Program-made: the position numbers and the translations under genes
Part shown: positions 541 through 15,556 of the stretch, piece after piece
Numbering within the stretch: the stretch's first letter is position 1
How the letters are laid out: every line of letters begins with the position of its first letter
Notes under the pieces: model-generated
What the model was told of the DNA's origin: nothing
The model's database searches: none
The model's input: the letters and a program-made list of their open reading frames with translations, nothing else
Virus record (IMG/VR): IMGVR_UViG_3300048442_000070
Location: 1 to 27,122 of that record
DNA from: a virus
Strand: one strand, 5' to 3'
Length of the DNA: 27,122 nucleotides

Positions 541-670
541 ACTATCTCCTTCCAAAAAGATATAGTGTTTGCTAACTATTGAGAATTGGATACACACTTT
601 TTATAGTGACGATTATGTATTGTATTCTCAAATTTCAAATCGTTACCCGTAATAGTTAGCTTGCACTATG
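541..670 (-). promoter_or_regulatory. Long structured 5' leader of the endonuclease gene
   Basis: The untranslated stretch holds nested inverted repeats. The outer arms are 562-580 and 651-669 (16 of 19 positions complementary, with a 3-nt internal mismatch). The inner arms are 580-586 and 624-630 (TGAGAAT/ATTCTCA). A small hairpin is at 595-598/605-608. On the 3' side the inner and outer arms are contiguous; on the 5' side they are separated by about 20 nt. The predicted transcript would start at the base of the outer stem and leave the AAGGAG ribosome site just outside it. This could be a regulatory RNA fold or a DNA target. The arms are seen directly; the function is not known. Confidence 0.5.
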
Positions 671-3865: not shown

Positions 3866-4096
3866 TTAGTCTCCTCCGCGTTCGCCGCGTACAAACACAT
3901 AGTGAATAACATTATTCCAATTCTCAAACTCGTATATATATAGATCGTTAGCTTTAAGATAATCTTGTAGCTCTTTTGTACTATCTATAAATATAGGTTT
4001 ACCGTTTCTTGCAACGATAAAACCTTTGCCAGTTTTTGCAACTGACTGTTTAAGTTCGGATAACATAAAGTCATCACTTGTCAGTATATCAGTCAT
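3866..4096 (-). CDS. Hypothetical protein, first gene of the left operon
   Basis: 76 residues. I place the start at the ATG at 4096 because GGGAGG lies 4 nt before it; a TTG four codons upstream lies within that ribosome site. The sequence SVAKTGKGFIVARNGKPIFIDSTKELQDYL suggests a small alpha/beta domain. The family is not recognised. It is the first gene after the only long intergenic region and so probably the promoter-proximal gene of the 702-4096 operon. Confidence 0.6.
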   Translation of the reverse strand: MTDILTSDDFMLSELKQSVAKTGKGFIVARNGKPIFIDSTKELQDYLKANDLYIYEFENWNNVIHYVFVRGERGGD

Positions 4097-4135: not shown

Positions 4136-4165
4136 AGTATAAAATTTCTTATTTAGCAACGACAA
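4136..4165 (-). promoter_or_regulatory. Candidate promoter of the left operon
   Basis: On the minus strand TTGTCG (4165-4160), an 18-bp spacer, then TATACT (4141-4136). The transcript would have a leader of about 33 nt including GGGAGG. The -35 match is 4 of 6, the -10 match 5 of 6. It overlaps a weaker plus-strand candidate (TTGTAC 4114-4119, TATAAA 4138-4143). Confidence 0.4.
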
Positions 4166-4222
4166 ACCCAAAAATGAATTAAAAGGTTTGCCGTCAAGGA
4201 CAAGGGTAAAGGAGGAAACCCC

Positions 4223-4276
4223 ATGTCAATGAAATATAAGTTGACATTAATTATAGCACACGGTATATTGGTCTAG
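4223..4276 (+). CDS. Possible 17-aa leader peptide
   Basis: A 17-codon plus-strand frame (MSMKYKLTLIIAHGILV) with a perfect AAAGGAGG ribosome site 7 nt before the ATG. The ribosome site sits in a short potential hairpin loop (GGGT 4204-4207 / ACCC). Its stop codon (4274-4276) coincides with the predicted start of the first small RNA, and codons TTG-ACA form that RNA's -35 box. The peptide is hydrophobic in its C-terminal half. It may be chance: no strong promoter for it is seen. Confidence 0.25.
   Translation: MSMKYKLTLIIAHGILV
4241..4269 (+). promoter_or_regulatory. Strong sigma70-type promoter of small RNA 1
   Basis: TTGACA (4241-4246), 17-bp spacer, TATATT (4264-4269). It is on the plus strand, against nearly all coding. 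The sequence from the -35 to just past the -10 resembles a second promoter at 4349-4376 (TTGACxTTAATT...TATATTGG). Confidence 0.6.
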
Positions 4277-4346
4277 TAGATAACACTTCGATGTTGTCTC
4301 CTTCCCAATTAAAAGAGACCACTCCTGCGAGGGTGGTCTTTTTTTT
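4276..4346 (+). ncRNA. Candidate small RNA 1 (about 70 nt)
   Basis: Predicted from a promoter 7 nt upstream and an intrinsic terminator at its end. The 5' part folds as a 7-bp hairpin (4279-4285 with 4292-4298, loop CUUCGA, one G-U pair). A single-stranded stretch with CUCCUUCCC follows, then the terminator stem. The CUCCUU core is complementary to Shine-Dalgarno sequences such as AAGGAG, a layout known from CU-rich regulatory RNAs that block translation. No conserved protein frame covers it. Transcription is inferred, not seen. Confidence 0.5.
4317..4346 (+). terminator. Intrinsic terminator of small RNA 1
   Basis: GACCAC (4317-4322) pairs with GTGGTC (4333-4338) and is followed by an uninterrupted run of eight further T residues to 4346. 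The inner part can add pairs with a bulge. A shorter T-rich stretch on the other side means it could also act weakly on minus-strand transcripts. Confidence 0.7.
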
Positions 4347-4348
4347 AC

Positions 4349-4376
4349 TTGACTTTAATTTGTGATGGGTTATATT
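4349..4376 (+). promoter_or_regulatory. Promoter of small RNA 2
   Basis: TTGACT (4349-4354), 16-bp spacer, TATATT (4371-4376). It starts directly after the first terminator and resembles the promoter at 4241-4269. Confidence 0.5.
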
Positions 4377-4382
4377 GGAGTA

Positions 4383-4446
4383 TCTTATTTAATACTGCCA
4401 TATTCTATGAGATGTAAAAAGCGGGAGTTTTATCTCCCGTTTTTTT
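4383..4446 (+). ncRNA. Candidate small RNA 2 (about 64 nt)
   Basis: Starts about 7 nt after the second TATATT and ends in the T-run of the next terminator. A 5' UCUUAU/AUGAGA stem with a loop of about 18 nt precedes the terminator stem, so the layout repeats that of small RNA 1 (5' hairpin, spacer, terminator). The last bases overlap the stop codon of the phosphoesterase gene on the other strand. Predicted only. Confidence 0.4.
4416..4446. terminator. Bidirectional intrinsic terminator
   Basis: Stem CGGGAG (4422-4427) / CTCCCG (4434-4439), loop TTTTAT. T-runs lie on both sides: seven T on the plus strand (4440-4446) and five on the minus strand (4420-4416). It follows the stop codon of the phosphoesterase and would end the minus-strand operon as well as small RNA 2. 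Confidence 0.75.
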
Positions 4447-5665
4447 AAACTATCTCTAAATTATTATGACCATTCTTATTGACAACCATAGTCACTACAC
4501 CTTGCCTAGTTTTCTTACCTGCTTGCTGTTCAAAGTAAGTACTCTCATCTAAGCTAGGTACTTGTATCCAGGTGCGTGGATCATGCACTTGTCTAAAATG
4601 ATGGTAATGTCCTGTCACTAAGATAGACGAGGAACCAGAATGAAACCCTCCAAACGTTTGGTTCTTCCACCAGTTCATAACCTTCGTCTCTACTGTCCCG
4701 CCGAAACCAGTAAGATGTCCATGAGTAAAGGACATGTTTGTTCCACATACGTTTAGCGATAAGTGAGGTTCATCAGGTATGACAAACTTTATATGGTCGT
4801 ACTGTGGTTTGTCTGCAAAGATTTCTCCTATTTGTTCAAAGACTTCTATGTCATAGTTGTCCATACCACCTGTTGGTGCTACACCTTTATCAGTACGTTT
4901 CTCTCCATGATTACCTGGAACTGCACCTACTACTACAACATCAAAGTCTTTAGACCATTCGACTAATGCTTTAGCAATAAGTCTTCTAGCTAACTTCATT
5001 TGATTTCTATAGTCTAACTCTACGCCGTTAGGTCCCATTGCTTGTGGGTAAAATCCTACGCAACCCTCGACAATATCCCCTAATCCTACAACAGTAAGTT
5101 GATCCATCTCTACCCCTGCTTTACGTAGGAAGTTATACCTATCGCGTACAAGATCTATCTTCTCTAAGAAGCGTTCAACAATAAGTTCAGTACCTCCGCC
5201 ATCTCTTTTGCCTAACTGCAAATCTGCAACTGCAACAAAAAAGCTAGCTTTAGTTTTCTTTACTTTAGGTTTAGCTTTACGCTTATAAGACTGTATCCAT
5301 TTTTCTATACGGGTGTAGTCTTCTTTATCTATCGTTGCTTCTGTTGCAACTATCTGTGCTTTGTATGCCCATGCCTGATGTATTTCTCCCTTACCTACAT
5401 TCATATCCCATGTACTCACACGCAATGTGTCATTAACTATTGCATATTTTTTAGGATCAAATCCCCATTCTAGTAAGAGTTCATCAAACTCTGGAGTAGA
5501 ACTACTTGTAGCTCTTGATGTTATGGTTCCAGTCTTAGTTTTATAATCAAACTTTACTCCTGGTTCCCACCCTTTAGGGTGCGCAACACCCTCCTTTGTA
5601 TTATTGTGTGCTACGTCCTGTTGGGTTTCGGTAAGTTTACTTACCTGCGAGTTGTTTTTTTGCAT
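4445..5665 (-). CDS. Calcineurin-like metallophosphoesterase (Mre11/SbcD-like nuclease candidate)
   Basis: 406 residues. The five metal-site motifs of the calcineurin-like superfamily are visible in order: ADLQ (D148), GLGDIVE (D197), PGNHGE (N252, H253), THGH (H315) and TGHYHHFRQ (H353, H355). The first 140 residues are a separate N-terminal region ending in a very basic stretch (KRKAKPKVKKTK). Actinophages often carry a similar enzyme described as an Mre11-like exo/endonuclease. DNA hydrolysis is a reasonable guess, but other phosphodiesters are possible. It overlaps the holin gene by 29 nt and is the last gene before a bidirectional terminator. Confidence 0.8.
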   Translation of the reverse strand: MQKNNSQVSKLTETQQDVAHNNTKEGVAHPKGWEPGVKFDYKTKTGTITSRATSSSTPEFDELLLEWGFDPKKYAIVNDTLRVSTWDMNVGKGEIHQAWAYKAQIVATEATIDKEDYTRIEKWIQSYKRKAKPKVKKTKASFFVAVADLQLGKRDGGGTELIVERFLEKIDLVRDRYNFLRKAGVEMDQLTVVGLGDIVEGCVGFYPQAMGPNGVELDYRNQMKLARRLIAKALVEWSKDFDVVVVGAVPGNHGEKRTDKGVAPTGGMDNYDIEVFEQIGEIFADKPQYDHIKFVIPDEPHLSLNVCGTNMSFTHGHLTGFGGTVETKVMNWWKNQTFGGFHSGSSSILVTGHYHHFRQVHDPRTWIQVPSLDESTYFEQQAGKKTRQGVVTMVVNKNGHNNLEIV

Positions 5666-6691: not shown

Positions 6692-6958
6692 TTACCACTT
6701 TACCTTATCTGCCCAATAAGCTGCAGACATTTTGCCTTTCTTTATGTTCTTCGCGTGTCGGGCTTTAAAAGACTTACGTCTTGCTTTAGACTTAGCGTCA
6801 GTTTTTTTGCCCGCCCCTGAAACGCCTTGTTGTCCGAACCTGATTAACTTAACCTTACCGTTCTCTTTAGCTAGTACAGCGTGTGACTTACTAGCTTTAG
6901 GTGTACGTTTAGGTTTGTTGTAACCAGAGAACTTTTCTCCTCTGTACTCTATTGCCAT
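6692..6958 (-). CDS. Basic conserved phage protein (DUF6321-like)
   Basis: 88 residues, about a third Lys or Arg. The sequence runs KFSGYNKPKRTP, SKSHAVLAKENGKVKLIRFGQQGV, KARRKSFKARHAKNIKKGK and ends SAAYWADKVKW. I recognise this pattern from many phage genomes and believe it is catalogued as DUF6321. No function is established; the charge fits nucleic-acid or nucleoprotein binding. It lies between the 22-residue and 54-residue basic proteins, with AAGGAT before the ATG. Confidence 0.7.
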   Translation of the reverse strand: MAIEYRGEKFSGYNKPKRTPKASKSHAVLAKENGKVKLIRFGQQGVSGAGKKTDAKSKARRKSFKARHAKNIKKGKMSAAYWADKVKW

Positions 6959-6976
6959 ATTCTATCCTTTAGACTA

Positions 6977-9820: not shown

Positions 9821-10573
9821 CTATATTTTATGTTGTTTATAAAATTTAGGTTGTTTTTTATAACCTGTTATAAAGTTTTCATTAATTACAAAATTTGACT
9901 TTTCTAAATAATTTTCATCGTATTCTTTTTTTGTACCTTTGCGTACTTTTAATTTAATATCTTCTTTTTTAAATACGTGTACATAAACTAATGGTGTACC
10001 TGCTTCTATTGTACAATTATAATTTTCAATAGAAAAAGGGAATGCAACATAGCCCCATTTGTCTGCTTCAACTACTCCAGTAAGCATTCTTATATCATTT
10101 CTGAAGTTGTAAAATGGATCTTGATACATAACACTATAACCATCAGGGACTAATATTTTATATGGCATACCTAGTTTTAATATAGTTCCTTGTGGTGTCT
10201 TACCTATAGGCATATCTCCTACTTGGTGTTCAGTATGTGCGCCTAATAATTTTTCTTGATGATAAGTGTCAGAAGTAAAAGCGGCATAGGTAAAATCTTT
10301 ACCATCTACTTTTTCTGTGCCTATATAAAGTTTACCCCATAAAGGTAATACAATACCCTCGCCAAAATAATCTTGTATTGCAGGACATTTTTTAGCTGTA
10401 ATAAATTCATCTCCTGAAGGGATATTGAGATGTGAGTCTTTCCAACTTTCTCTATAACTACCTGGTTTTAAATTTTTCCACCAATCAGGTAATATCTCTT
10501 TAGCTTTTACTGGTGGATACAACCTTAATAAATCTTCATACTCCTTACTCTTGGGTATAATCGTAATTTTCAC
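9821..10573 (-). CDS. Cyanophage-type conserved protein (DUF6065-like), copy 2
   Basis: 250 residues, GTG start with a GGGGGG-type site upstream. The pattern PPVKAKEILPDWWKN..., KKCPAIQDYF.G, H...Q, VPDGYSVMY.DPF, GVVEADKWGY..FPF and AGTPLVYVHVFK matches a family I know from cyanophages and marine bacteria, which I believe is DUF6065. It looks beta-rich and soluble. It overlaps the paralogous gene upstream by 29 nt. In this phage the pair lies next to a halogenase-like gene. Its biochemical function is not known; the number of the family is from memory. Confidence 0.6.
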   Translation of the reverse strand: MKITIIPKSKEYEDLLRLYPPVKAKEILPDWWKNLKPGSYRESWKDSHLNIPSGDEFITAKKCPAIQDYFGEGIVLPLWGKLYIGTEKVDGKDFTYAAFTSDTYHQEKLLGAHTEHQVGDMPIGKTPQGTILKLGMPYKILVPDGYSVMYQDPFYNFRNDIRMLTGVVEADKWGYVAFPFSIENYNCTIEAGTPLVYVHVFKKEDIKLKVRKGTKKEYDENYLEKSNFVINENFITGYKKQPKFYKQHKI

Positions 10574-11261
10574 TTTTACTGTACCCCCCTTTAAATCTAC
10601 TAATAGTTACTAAATCTATTTTTTTAATAAATTTTTTTAATTTAGCGTCCATATATTTAAACTTGTATTTATATTTTTCTTTTTTGTAAGGAACTATGTA
10701 ACAAATCGGCTCGCCTTTTTTAATTAACAATTCTTCTTTTTCAGTTGTGATTAATATTTGTGTATTAAGTTGTGTCATTTTGTCTTGTTCTATGACACCG
10801 TAAGTTGCAAACCAATCAGTATTGAAATGTAGATTTAAAGGTATATATCTTAATGCGTATCCTTTTGGTAACATGCAATGAAATCTAGTAGCTAATCTAA
10901 ATACAGCTTTGATAGGTTTACCTGGTATATGATTTACAAATTGATCATCTTTGTGATGATTCAAACCTACGTTAGGATTAGCTGTTATTCCTTGCCATTT
11001 ACCATTCATATTAAATAAATGAATGTCGCAAGGTGCTACTATAACATAAGTATTTTCGTGAAATATATTTGCAAATGAAGGACACACTTTGGTAGTTCTC
11101 CAATTAGGAACTATCTTGCTAACAAACCATGAGTGATTTTCAGGCATATCTACAGGCATATCTTTGTACCATTTTGGAACAAAATTTTTAGCAGGTTGAG
11201 GTTTAATATCTTCCATATCTAAAAACTCATCATAATCAGATGTAAACAATATATCCACCAT
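10545..11261 (-). CDS. Cyanophage-type conserved protein (DUF6065-like), copy 1
   Basis: 238 residues, a diverged paralog of the next gene. Shared landmarks are PAKNFVPKWYKD, TTKVCPSFANIF, HHKDDQ, LPKGYALRYIPL, YGVIEQDKM and KKGEPICYIVPYKKEKY. The conserved W, C, H and Q positions line up between the two copies. The N-terminal P.W.K.MP motif is typical of the family. TATACT lies 6 nt before the ATG, so it may have its own leaderless transcript. Function unknown; the neighbouring halogenase-like enzyme suggests a shared pathway. Confidence 0.6.
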   Translation of the reverse strand: MVDILFTSDYDEFLDMEDIKPQPAKNFVPKWYKDMPVDMPENHSWFVSKIVPNWRTTKVCPSFANIFHENTYVIVAPCDIHLFNMNGKWQGITANPNVGLNHHKDDQFVNHIPGKPIKAVFRLATRFHCMLPKGYALRYIPLNLHFNTDWFATYGVIEQDKMTQLNTQILITTEKEELLIKKGEPICYIVPYKKEKYKYKFKYMDAKLKKFIKKIDLVTISRFKGGYSKSENYDYTQE

Positions 11262-11547: not shown

Positions 11548-12639
11548 ATGAAGAAATTAGTAGTGTTAGGCGATGGTATAGCAAGTATGCTAGCTATTAA
11601 TTATTTTAAACTACATACTGATTGGGAAATAGAATGTCTCATAAAACCTGATAGTAAGCATTGGGACGTAGGTATTAGTTCTGCATTAGATACTCCCTTC
11701 CAATTAGATAACGTTAATTATTTAGACATAGAAAAATTTAATGCTAATTTAAAACTAGGAATTATGAAAGAAAATTTTAATGGTAAAGATTATTTTCAAT
11801 CGTATAAATTAAGCAACGCCAGTTTACAATTTAATTCTAAAGATTTCATTGCGTATTTAAAATCAATTAACAATATTAAATATACAGAGACAGATGACTT
11901 CATTACTGATAGTGCAGATTTTATTATCGATGGAAGCGGCGTGCCTGTTATAGACGATAGTTATAATATTATAAAAAATATACCAGTTAATACTGCATTA
12001 GGAATTAAAATACCACACGAATATCCACCATTTATGTACACAAAAATAAAAGCAATGCAACATGGTTATATCTCAATGATACCAAGCAAAAGATATTTAT
12101 TTGTTACACACATGTATAACTCAAATATAAATACAGAAGATGAAATACTAGAAGATTTAGAAAAAATGTTTCCTATAAATAAACATCAAACAATACCTTT
12201 TAAAAATTATTACAAAAAGTTTCCATATAAAAATAACAAAGTATACATTGGTAATAAAAACTTTTTTGTTGAACCTTTTGAAGGCACAAGTTTAACTGGT
12301 ATTAATATAACTATTAACTCTGCTTATCATTTGTGGAACAACCCAAGAAGTTTTGAACCACAAGCATTGAGAGATTATATTGATGAAGCAATAGATACAA
12401 TTCTTATGCACTATTTAGCTAATAAAAATATTGATACTGCCTTTTGGAATACAGCTAACAGTTTAGCTATAGATCATTTTACAAATAGTACATCTAATAA
12501 TTTTAAAAATAGAGTATTAAATATATACGATCCAAGAGTTAAATACAGTTACTCACATTTTTATGATCAAAAAATGTTAAAAGCTAATTTAGATTATTTA
12601 GGTGTAGGAAGTCTATTCCGTAACTTGTTCGGGAATTGA
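11548..12639 (+). CDS. FAD-dependent halogenase-like enzyme (tryptophan-halogenase family)
   Basis: 363 residues. The N-terminus KKLVVLGDGIASML is a Rossmann FAD-binding motif. DFIIDGSGVP (124-133) matches the second flavin-site motif. K69 in LKLGI lies where tryptophan halogenases carry the catalytic lysine, and E245 in EPFEGTSLTG (242-251) fits the catalytic glutamate of the PLESTG region. The WxWxIP motif is altered to YISMIP (174-179). Such enzymes use reduced flavin, oxygen and halide to make HOX. A cyanophage halogenase (VirX1) is known. It is shorter than the usual 500-plus residues. It is the only sizeable plus-strand gene, AT-rich, and overlaps the convergent neighbour by 27 nt. Substrate unknown. 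Confidence 0.7.
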   Translation: MKKLVVLGDGIASMLAINYFKLHTDWEIECLIKPDSKHWDVGISSALDTPFQLDNVNYLDIEKFNANLKLGIMKENFNGKDYFQSYKLSNASLQFNSKDFIAYLKSINNIKYTETDDFITDSADFIIDGSGVPVIDDSYNIIKNIPVNTALGIKIPHEYPPFMYTKIKAMQHGYISMIPSKRYLFVTHMYNSNINTEDEILEDLEKMFPINKHQTIPFKNYYKKFPYKNNKVYIGNKNFFVEPFEGTSLTGINITINSAYHLWNNPRSFEPQALRDYIDEAIDTILMHYLANKNIDTAFWNTANSLAIDHFTNSTSNNFKNRVLNIYDPRVKYSYSHFYDQKMLKANLDYLGVGSLFRNLFGN

Positions 12640-14550: not shown

Positions 14551-15537
14551 CTAACCGTTTAATGCGAAGAATAGGTTACTAGAATTTAAAGATACAGAAC
14601 CACCACCGCCGCCACCTAAACTTATTTCTCCTGCACCACCCATAGCTGTATGACTTGAACAATAGTAGTACAAAGTTTTAGTAGCGCCTTCTATTCCTAA
14701 AGTTTCTGGTGTTACTTCTATTTGTGTATATGCACCTGTAGTGCCAGGTGTTCCGTTAGTAGTTACATTAGTAGTAAATTCAGAACCTGAACCATGTGTT
14801 CCATCTTTAGTAGCAGAAAATCTGAAAGGGTGATTTGTGTTAGAACTATCTGATTGATTAAAATAATATTTAAAACCTATCTTGAATAAAAAATGCGAAG
14901 ATCTTGTACCTGCACCAGTATCTGTACCTGATAAAAAGTAAAAAACATTTTGACTACCGCTACCATCATCAGCTACCTTAACATCTATGTTTACTGTTTG
15001 TGATGCTGTACCTTGCGTCAAACTATCTATGCTTGCTTGTAATGAAGTATCTGCAGTATCAACATAAGATTTATTTGCAGCGTCTGCTGCTGCTGTAGGT
15101 GTAGTAAGGTTTGTAATTTTATTATTGTTAGCGTTTAAGTCTGCAGCTAGTTTAGGTGTACCTGCTGTACCTGAAGCATAACTCACATCTACTACTTGAC
15201 CAATTGCGTCAAACATATCTTCATATACTTGTTGTACAGGGACCATACGCACTACGGAGTTCTGTGGGTGTGATAGTCCTGAAGCTGCTGATGATCCTGT
15301 TAAATATCTATTGTCTCCAGTAGAAGTTACTAACTGTGTAGAAGTAAATGTTCCATCGAAAAATACATACTCACGCTGTGTTGCACTATCGGGTTCAATA
15401 ACTAAATAACAAGGACTTGTCAATCCTGAAGTGGAAGCTACTGTTGCTGTTGTGTCTGTAGCACCAAATGTACTAGATAGCGTAGTTTCAAACGCATTCC
15501 TTGTAAATGTTTCTGCTGCTTTTCTTGTACTTGCCAT
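14551..15537 (-). CDS. Tail fibre protein with C-terminal cupredoxin-like domain
   Basis: 328 residues. Residues 10-112 (FTRNAFETTLSSTF... to YEDMFDAIG) form the N-terminal virion-attachment type domain seen in marine phage fibres. Residues 132-161 (ADLNANNNKITNL then ADAANKSYVD) are the classical fibre motif. Residues 185-306 resemble a cupredoxin: NHPFRFS gives H236, and LYYYCSSHTAMGG gives C293, H296 and M299. The C-x2-H-x2-M spacing matches the type 1 copper site of amicyanin. A glycine-rich end follows. The domain is widespread in cyanophage structural proteins. Copper binding is inferred. AGGAG ribosome site. Confidence 0.72.
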   Translation of the reverse strand: MASTRKAAETFTRNAFETTLSSTFGATDTTATVASTSGLTSPCYLVIEPDSATQREYVFFDGTFTSTQLVTSTGDNRYLTGSSAASGLSHPQNSVVRMVPVQQVYEDMFDAIGQVVDVSYASGTAGTPKLAADLNANNNKITNLTTPTAAADAANKSYVDTADTSLQASIDSLTQGTASQTVNIDVKVADDGSGSQNVFYFLSGTDTGAGTRSSHFLFKIGFKYYFNQSDSSNTNHPFRFSATKDGTHGSGSEFTTNVTTNGTPGTTGAYTQIEVTPETLGIEGATKTLYYYCSSHTAMGGAGEISLGGGGGGSVSLNSSNLFFALNG

Positions 15538-15556
15538 ATTCTAATTTCTCCTGTTT

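Follow-up and report, generated by a model that had tools for sequence, protein, structure and literature searches.

Three candidate small RNAs in an intergenic block of marine phages, two of them predicted to pair with the phages' own translation start sites

A gap between two minus-strand features in an uncultured marine virus of bacteria (GC content about 35%) probably encodes three short phage RNAs, each with its own terminator: A, directed against Shine-Dalgarno (SD) sequences, C, directed against start codons, and B, a structured RNA (Table 1). The window analyzed is the whole 27,122-nt stretch, positions 1 to 27,122 of IMG/VR record IMGVR_UViG_3300048442_000070. Units A and C lie on the plus strand and B on the minus strand, and each has a promoter-like site, a hairpin and a terminator-like end. 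On sequence evidence, A and C are best read as phage small RNAs (sRNAs) that regulate the phage's own genes through a predicted block on translation initiation. The strands, conservation and structure of the units, the co-variation of the A seed with ribosome-binding sites (RBSs) and the enrichment of C complements at starts are all legible in the genomes compared here. A preliminary description of this DNA had placed two tandem non-coding units, each with promoter- and terminator-like sites, on the plus strand of the gap; both are there (A and C), conserved in relatives and with the promoters TTGACA-N17-TATATT and TTGACT-N16-TATATT as given, and the third unit, B, had been missed. The mobility of the block and the apparent direction of A at early-gene SDs and of C at start codons go beyond that account.

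Table 1. Coordinates of the gap, the candidate RNAs and their predicted targets in the window.
Feature	Position	Strand	Remarks
Gap between two minus-strand features	left operon start at 4096; MPE gene 3' end at 4445		
MPE/Mre11-like exonuclease gene	3' end 4445	minus	phrog_284
A promoter, TTGACA-N17-TATATT	4241..4269	plus	TTGACA 4241-4246, TATATT 4264-4269
Candidate sRNA A, about 70 nt	4276..4348	plus	5' hairpin 4278-4299, single-stranded seed, terminator
A seed CTCCTTCC (CUCCUUCC), anti-SD	4298..4305	plus	complementary to GGAAGGAG
A intrinsic terminator	4311..4347	plus	
B extended -10, TGCTATAAT (TGnTATAAT)	4250..4258	minus	within A promoter spacer
Candidate sRNA B, about 85 nt	4159..4243	minus	hairpin 4227-4199, terminator-like hairpin 4194-4159
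B loop GTTTCCTCCTTTA, 13 nt	4207..4219	minus	invariant
C promoter, TTGACT-N16-TATATT	4349..4376	plus	TTGACT 4349-4354, TATATT 4371-4376
Candidate sRNA C, about 64 nt	4383..4446	plus	hairpin 4383-4412, terminator 4417-4446
C seed TGCCATATTCTAT	4396..4408	plus	complementary to ATAGAATATGGCA
Predicted A target, RBS GGAAGGAG	546..553	minus	gene from 540 off left end
Predicted C target, start region ATAGAATATGGCA	6953..6965	minus	gene 6692-6958, 88 aa
Predicted C target, start region TAGAATATGGCA	15532..15543	minus	tail-fibre gene 14551-15537

Using the MPE protein as a search query, we obtained 80 viral loci. The core of B was present in all 73 MPE-gene loci whose downstream sequence sufficed, the core word of C lay near 26 of the MPE-gene loci, and A adjoined B, divergently, in the loci scanned; B was single-copy in all 15 family records of up to 44 kb. 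The A promoter follows a TTGACA-like/17/TAnnnT pattern in almost every one of 35 distinct variants, only the N of TGNTATAAT varies in the B -10 element, and the -35 and -10 elements of C are kept in relatives, where C occurs in three sub-lineages with promoter and terminator included. Because bare promoter-like matches in the AT-rich region are not above chance by themselves (6 vs 9.1 expected), the promoter evidence draws its weight from this conservation, the absence of which, for promoters and terminators alike, had been named at the outset as the observation that would speak against the units. The idea that the two plus-strand promoters arose by duplication did not hold up, as their likeness is not specific (66% in the window, 62% in a relative with different spacers). 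As a hold-out we set aside relatives anchored on MCP (up to 76% MCP identity). In most of these the covariance models detect neither A nor B, indicating that the cassette is clade-restricted, and they served as negative controls; 'lacking A' here means below model detection, and two of these relatives were later found to hold a diverged A-like unit. In the close relative L003, C is cleanly absent and the A terminator leads directly to the end of the MPE gene.

Three-frame readings of A, B and C yielded no convincing open reading frame (ORF), and with a promoter and an intrinsic terminator of their own, conserved structure and no conserved ORF, the units have the makeup of sRNAs. A 17-codon ORF at 4223 (MSMKYKLTLIIAHGILV, behind AAAGGAGG) was rejected: relatives have lost its start codon or have stops in it, and G-U pairs assign the conserved hairpin to the minus strand. 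A reading as a degenerate tRNA was also discarded, ARAGORN finding none. Rfam 15 returned no match at the gathering threshold in the window or 14 relatives, and no homology to RsaE/LhrC/6C-like families at that score; positions 4295-4346 gave a weak match to RF02278, a Betaproteobacteria toxic sRNA (29.4 bits, E 4.8e-4; gathering score 50).

Secondary structure is conserved. The RNA at 4276-4350 (A) folds with -24.9 kcal/mol (z -4.3) and that at 4383-4447 (C) with -20.8 kcal/mol (z -5.9), values equalled by no shuffle. Among 16 sequences of A, 90.8% of cells were paired vs 73.3% in shuffled alignments, and double changes at 12 of 15 pairs provide the compensatory changes that the preliminary description had looked to for support. 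B (18 pairs, 21 sequences) showed 92.5% paired cells vs 75.7%, double changes at 13 of its 18 pairs and a score of 0.53 vs 0.04-0.15 for slid controls. For C, compared over three sub-lineages only, both sides of the stem had changed at four pairs. B is assigned to the minus strand on its G-U pairs: transcribed from the plus strand, they would become A-C mismatches, and no A-C pairs were seen in the eight inner pairs of its first hairpin.

The seed of A is an unpaired C/U-rich stretch complementary to the SD, as in C-rich anti-SD sRNAs, and it co-varies with the RBSs of the phages that carry it. The GGAAGGAG octamer stands at the RBS of several early-operon genes in relatives, and in other lineages, where the seed reads CUCCUUAACU, CACCUCCAUU or GUACCUCC, the RBSs have changed to match. 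Three phages have CTCCTTAACT in place of the standard seed, and their early genes have AGTTAAGGAG. The orthologues that switch RBS along with the seed belong to clusters 11 (~277 aa), 38 (~195 aa; ArdA antirestriction, Pfam 7.7e-9) and 126 and, for the CACC class, cluster 28. Matches of at least 9 nt to a seed, our threshold, fell mostly within its own class: own-seed matched genes numbered 23 in the CC class (vs 1 and 0), 11 in the TTAAC class (vs 0 and 0) and 6 in the CACC class (vs 2 and 0), the last being weak evidence since the CACC seed fits a generic SD as well. The own-seed total at this 9-nt minimum (28 genomes, 15 seed types) was 71; when the seeds were permuted across lineages it fell to 25.3 +/- 10.4 and none of 20,000 permutations reached 71, figures that are no strict probabilities, the lineages being related, and that come from a run following exploratory counts on most of its genomes.

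A fourth seed class came from the hold-out. Two capsid-anchored genomes, G438 and G445, have a weak or no model score, yet beside their MPE gene lies a short A-like unit consisting of a hairpin, GTACCTCC and a terminator, with seed GUACCUCC. The corresponding RBS match was predicted before counting, and the count gave GGAGGTAC at 6 of the 38 GGAGG-type RBSs of this pair, compared with 1 of 141 among 24 genomes with other seeds; G444 and G446 have additional sites that look like those of G445, and one site is common to G449, G450, G452 and G457. At AAGGAG sites, GGAAGGAG and GTTAAGGAG were found in 22/55 and 8/22 cases in the matching seed classes, vs 3/34 and 1/34 in relatives without model-detected A or B. 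There was no sign that the phages avoid sites matching their anti-SD seed; the reverse was found. A single A target is visible in the window because the contig ends within the early region; the orthologue of that gene in G016 has AGTTAAGGAG together with a matching A seed. Four A-bearing genomes (G010, G020, G022 and G435) have no own match of at least 9 nt, for several of them perhaps because their early genes lie off the contig. Control of the left operon, suggested as possible in the preliminary description for both plus-strand units, would fit A, whose seed co-varies with RBSs in that operon; the apparent targets of C are different.

The hairpin loop of C holds TGCCATATTC and complements UAGAAUAUGGCA at start codons. 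We ranked every start-codon-spanning 10-mer by how many gene clusters have it, leaving C out of the ranking. The top-ranked word, GAATATGGCA, was shared by 9 clusters (45 times expectation) and is the exact complement of the C loop. It occurs at 11 of 192 starts in C-bearing genomes vs 3 of 370 in their C-less kin, 1 of 537 in relatives without model-detected A or B and 0 of 374 in unrelated low-GC phages; the few starts bearing it in genomes without detected C are in G001, G002, G007 and G022. The predicted duplexes extend over 12-14 bp at -15 to -21 kcal/mol, or -18 to -20 kcal/mol for GAATATGGCA taken with its flanks. Genes with the C complement at their start include major capsid (cluster 18) and tail genes; the targets are not all known structural genes, and the labels early and late used here describe gene content, not timing. 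Seed and targets co-vary for A, whereas for C the complementarity to start regions is seen as enrichment only.

The loop of B includes CCTCCTTT/CCUCCUUU, as found at the 16S 3' end, and is unchanged across 17 distinct stems. Among 49 unrelated viral matches to this loop, four have a perfect closing stem of at least 10 bp, vs about 0.1 expected, and hairpins similar to that of B occur in L102/L160, L152 and L440; such stems are found in just two of 119 bacterial loop matches, one being identical in sequence to viral L151. These counts point to the loop hairpin as a recurrent phage element. The GTTTCCTCCTTTA loop is found on long unrelated stems in L139 (1239), L151 (minus, 244), L137 (4916) and L174 (8325), and further in L102, L160 (1344), L152 (1627) and L440. 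Some of these hairpins in unrelated phages lie 3' of a promoter-like site or ahead of a gene start; one in L160/L102 is terminator-like, and that of L440 lies just 3' of a tRNA-like 3' end. B was also considered as a regulator of phage RBSs and rejected in that role, its complement not being enriched over flank-randomised controls.

We weighed three other accounts of the block. It might be transcription punctuation only, made up of bidirectional terminators and chance promoters with B as an attenuator leader of the left operon. B does lie upstream of that operon, and the C terminator hairpin can also be read as terminating the minus-strand gene whose 3' end is at 4445. However, in four contigs (L034-L037) the block is inverted relative to its neighbors, so that B is directed at the 3' end of the MPE gene and A and C point the opposite way, each with its terminator-like end, and the left operon of relatives has its own TATAAT-like -10 directly upstream of the first RBS. 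Both observations indicate that B is a free-standing RNA, not a leader, which would keep a fixed, co-directional position upstream of its operon. As loops and seeds are also kept beyond what a terminator needs, we consider punctuation alone very improbable. The likeness of seeds and RBSs could instead reflect shared descent or lineage RBS composition, with RBS cassettes being copied and one captured in antisense as the A seed. Phages within one seed class would indeed be related, and A-like seeds resemble a generic anti-SD. This account is improbable too, though less so: the motif is common to several unrelated genes per genome, orthologues go from GGAAGGAG to AGTTAAGGAG along with the seed, the motifs are rare at AAGGAG sites of relatives without model-detected A or B, and the fourth class was predicted ahead of counting.

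Somewhat better placed, but still unlikely, is an account in which the RNAs are mainly host-directed, their anti-SD or 16S-mimic seeds, above all the CCUCCUUU loop of B, titrating or blocking host mRNAs or the initiation machinery. The constancy of the B loop over so many stems would fit a partner that is constant between phages, as would the lack of RBS enrichment for its complement. A fixed host target would not yield an A seed that changes with the phage's own RBSs, and starts in the phage itself are enriched in the C complement. A broader version of our reading, in which development is timed mainly by RNA, with A against early SDs, C against starts and B as a general mimic of the 16S 3' end, seems to us possible but doubtful; B would then be a device common to unrelated phages, with the ribosome or SD sites as its target.

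In the reading that we prefer, the single-stranded linker of A would act in trans, pairing with the SDs of several leftward early-operon genes, among them those for the ArdA antirestriction protein, the ~277-aa protein and small early proteins, and thereby blocking ribosome binding. The loop of C would pair with the start-codon region of its targets, including capsid and tail-fibre genes, and block their translation, and B, divergent from A, would be a structured RNA whose CCUCCUUU loop does not vary. We infer that the RNAs are made, that pairing is repressive and that its purpose is to time early and late expression: A would act late, ending early expression, and C early, restraining the capsid and tail genes. 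Repression is assumed by default because pairing at an SD or start codon usually stops ribosome binding, as with c4, LhrC and RsaA. Two RNAs would thus probably serve, in place of proteins, as timers of infection.

Phage regulatory RNAs have so far been found mostly to act on one neighboring gene in temperate model phages, or on the host. The actinobacterial 6C RNA is a C-rich anti-SD sRNA, and like A it pairs with the SD through an unpaired C/U-rich stretch, as do Staphylococcus RsaA and Listeria LhrC; these are bacterial regulators of host genes, whereas A is phage-encoded with predicted phage targets. The c4 RNA of phages P1/P7 and the sar RNA of P22 pair with phage mRNA near the RBS or otherwise hinder initiation (PMC12197685). 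They resemble A and C in setting a phage RNA against phage mRNA at translation initiation, the c4 complement likewise lying in loops, but act in temperate phages on a single mRNA (ant) close to where they are encoded, whereas A apparently acts in trans on several early genes with a co-varying seed, and C on several others. Nor are A and C of the cis-antisense type (OOP, aQ, sar), as no gene lies opposite either and the predicted targets are kilobases away. VpdS of phage VP882, whose targets are phage and host mRNAs, and PreS of lambda, whose target is host dnaN (PMC12197685), are trans-acting phage sRNAs like A and C, but Hfq-dependent and gammaproteobacterial. In T4, RegB cuts GGAG in early-mRNA SDs and RegA is a translational repressor (PMC3014915). 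The presumed purpose, shut-off of early mRNAs at the translation start, would be the same, with proteins in T4 and a pairing RNA here. The block would then be a multi-target RNA circuit over a phage's own early and other genes, in a group that probably infects actinobacteria. Seed/RBS co-evolution would make the RNA interaction map readable from metagenomes alone, and the early-to-late switch in non-model phages becomes testable by simple reporters.

A marine actinobacterium is the likely host. Isolate relatives are weak (matches listed at most 33% identity for the MPE and capsid proteins); those of the MPE protein are mostly phages of Mycobacterium, Propionibacterium and Streptomyces, and those of the capsid are phages of Mycobacterium and Propionibacterium. 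Such a host would, to our knowledge, be expected to lack Hfq. Capsid relatives occurred in 7 of 396 sampled genomes from the phylum of L333, Actinopolyspora; a search for related MPE genes in bacterial genomes gave no match to a host, and no isolates with similar DNA were found. Actinomarina phages of 34-36% GC are known (PMC7771536).

Elsewhere in the window, a tryptophan-halogenase-like gene (phrog_2928, 11548-12639) is the sole large plus-strand gene. A phage protein encoded on the minus strand at 1990-2295 matches the SET domain (PF00856, E 8e-9), and its gene shares an operon with a RusA-like resolvase gene (920-1297); two neighboring, slightly overlapping minus-strand genes at 9821-11261 are phrog_7084 paralogues. 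In L034-L037, an extra plus-strand unit separates the inverted block from the left operon, with a TATACT-like -10 and two closely spaced GGAAACAAG repeats followed by a terminator (GATCCTGTAGATTTATCTGCAGGATTTTTTG).
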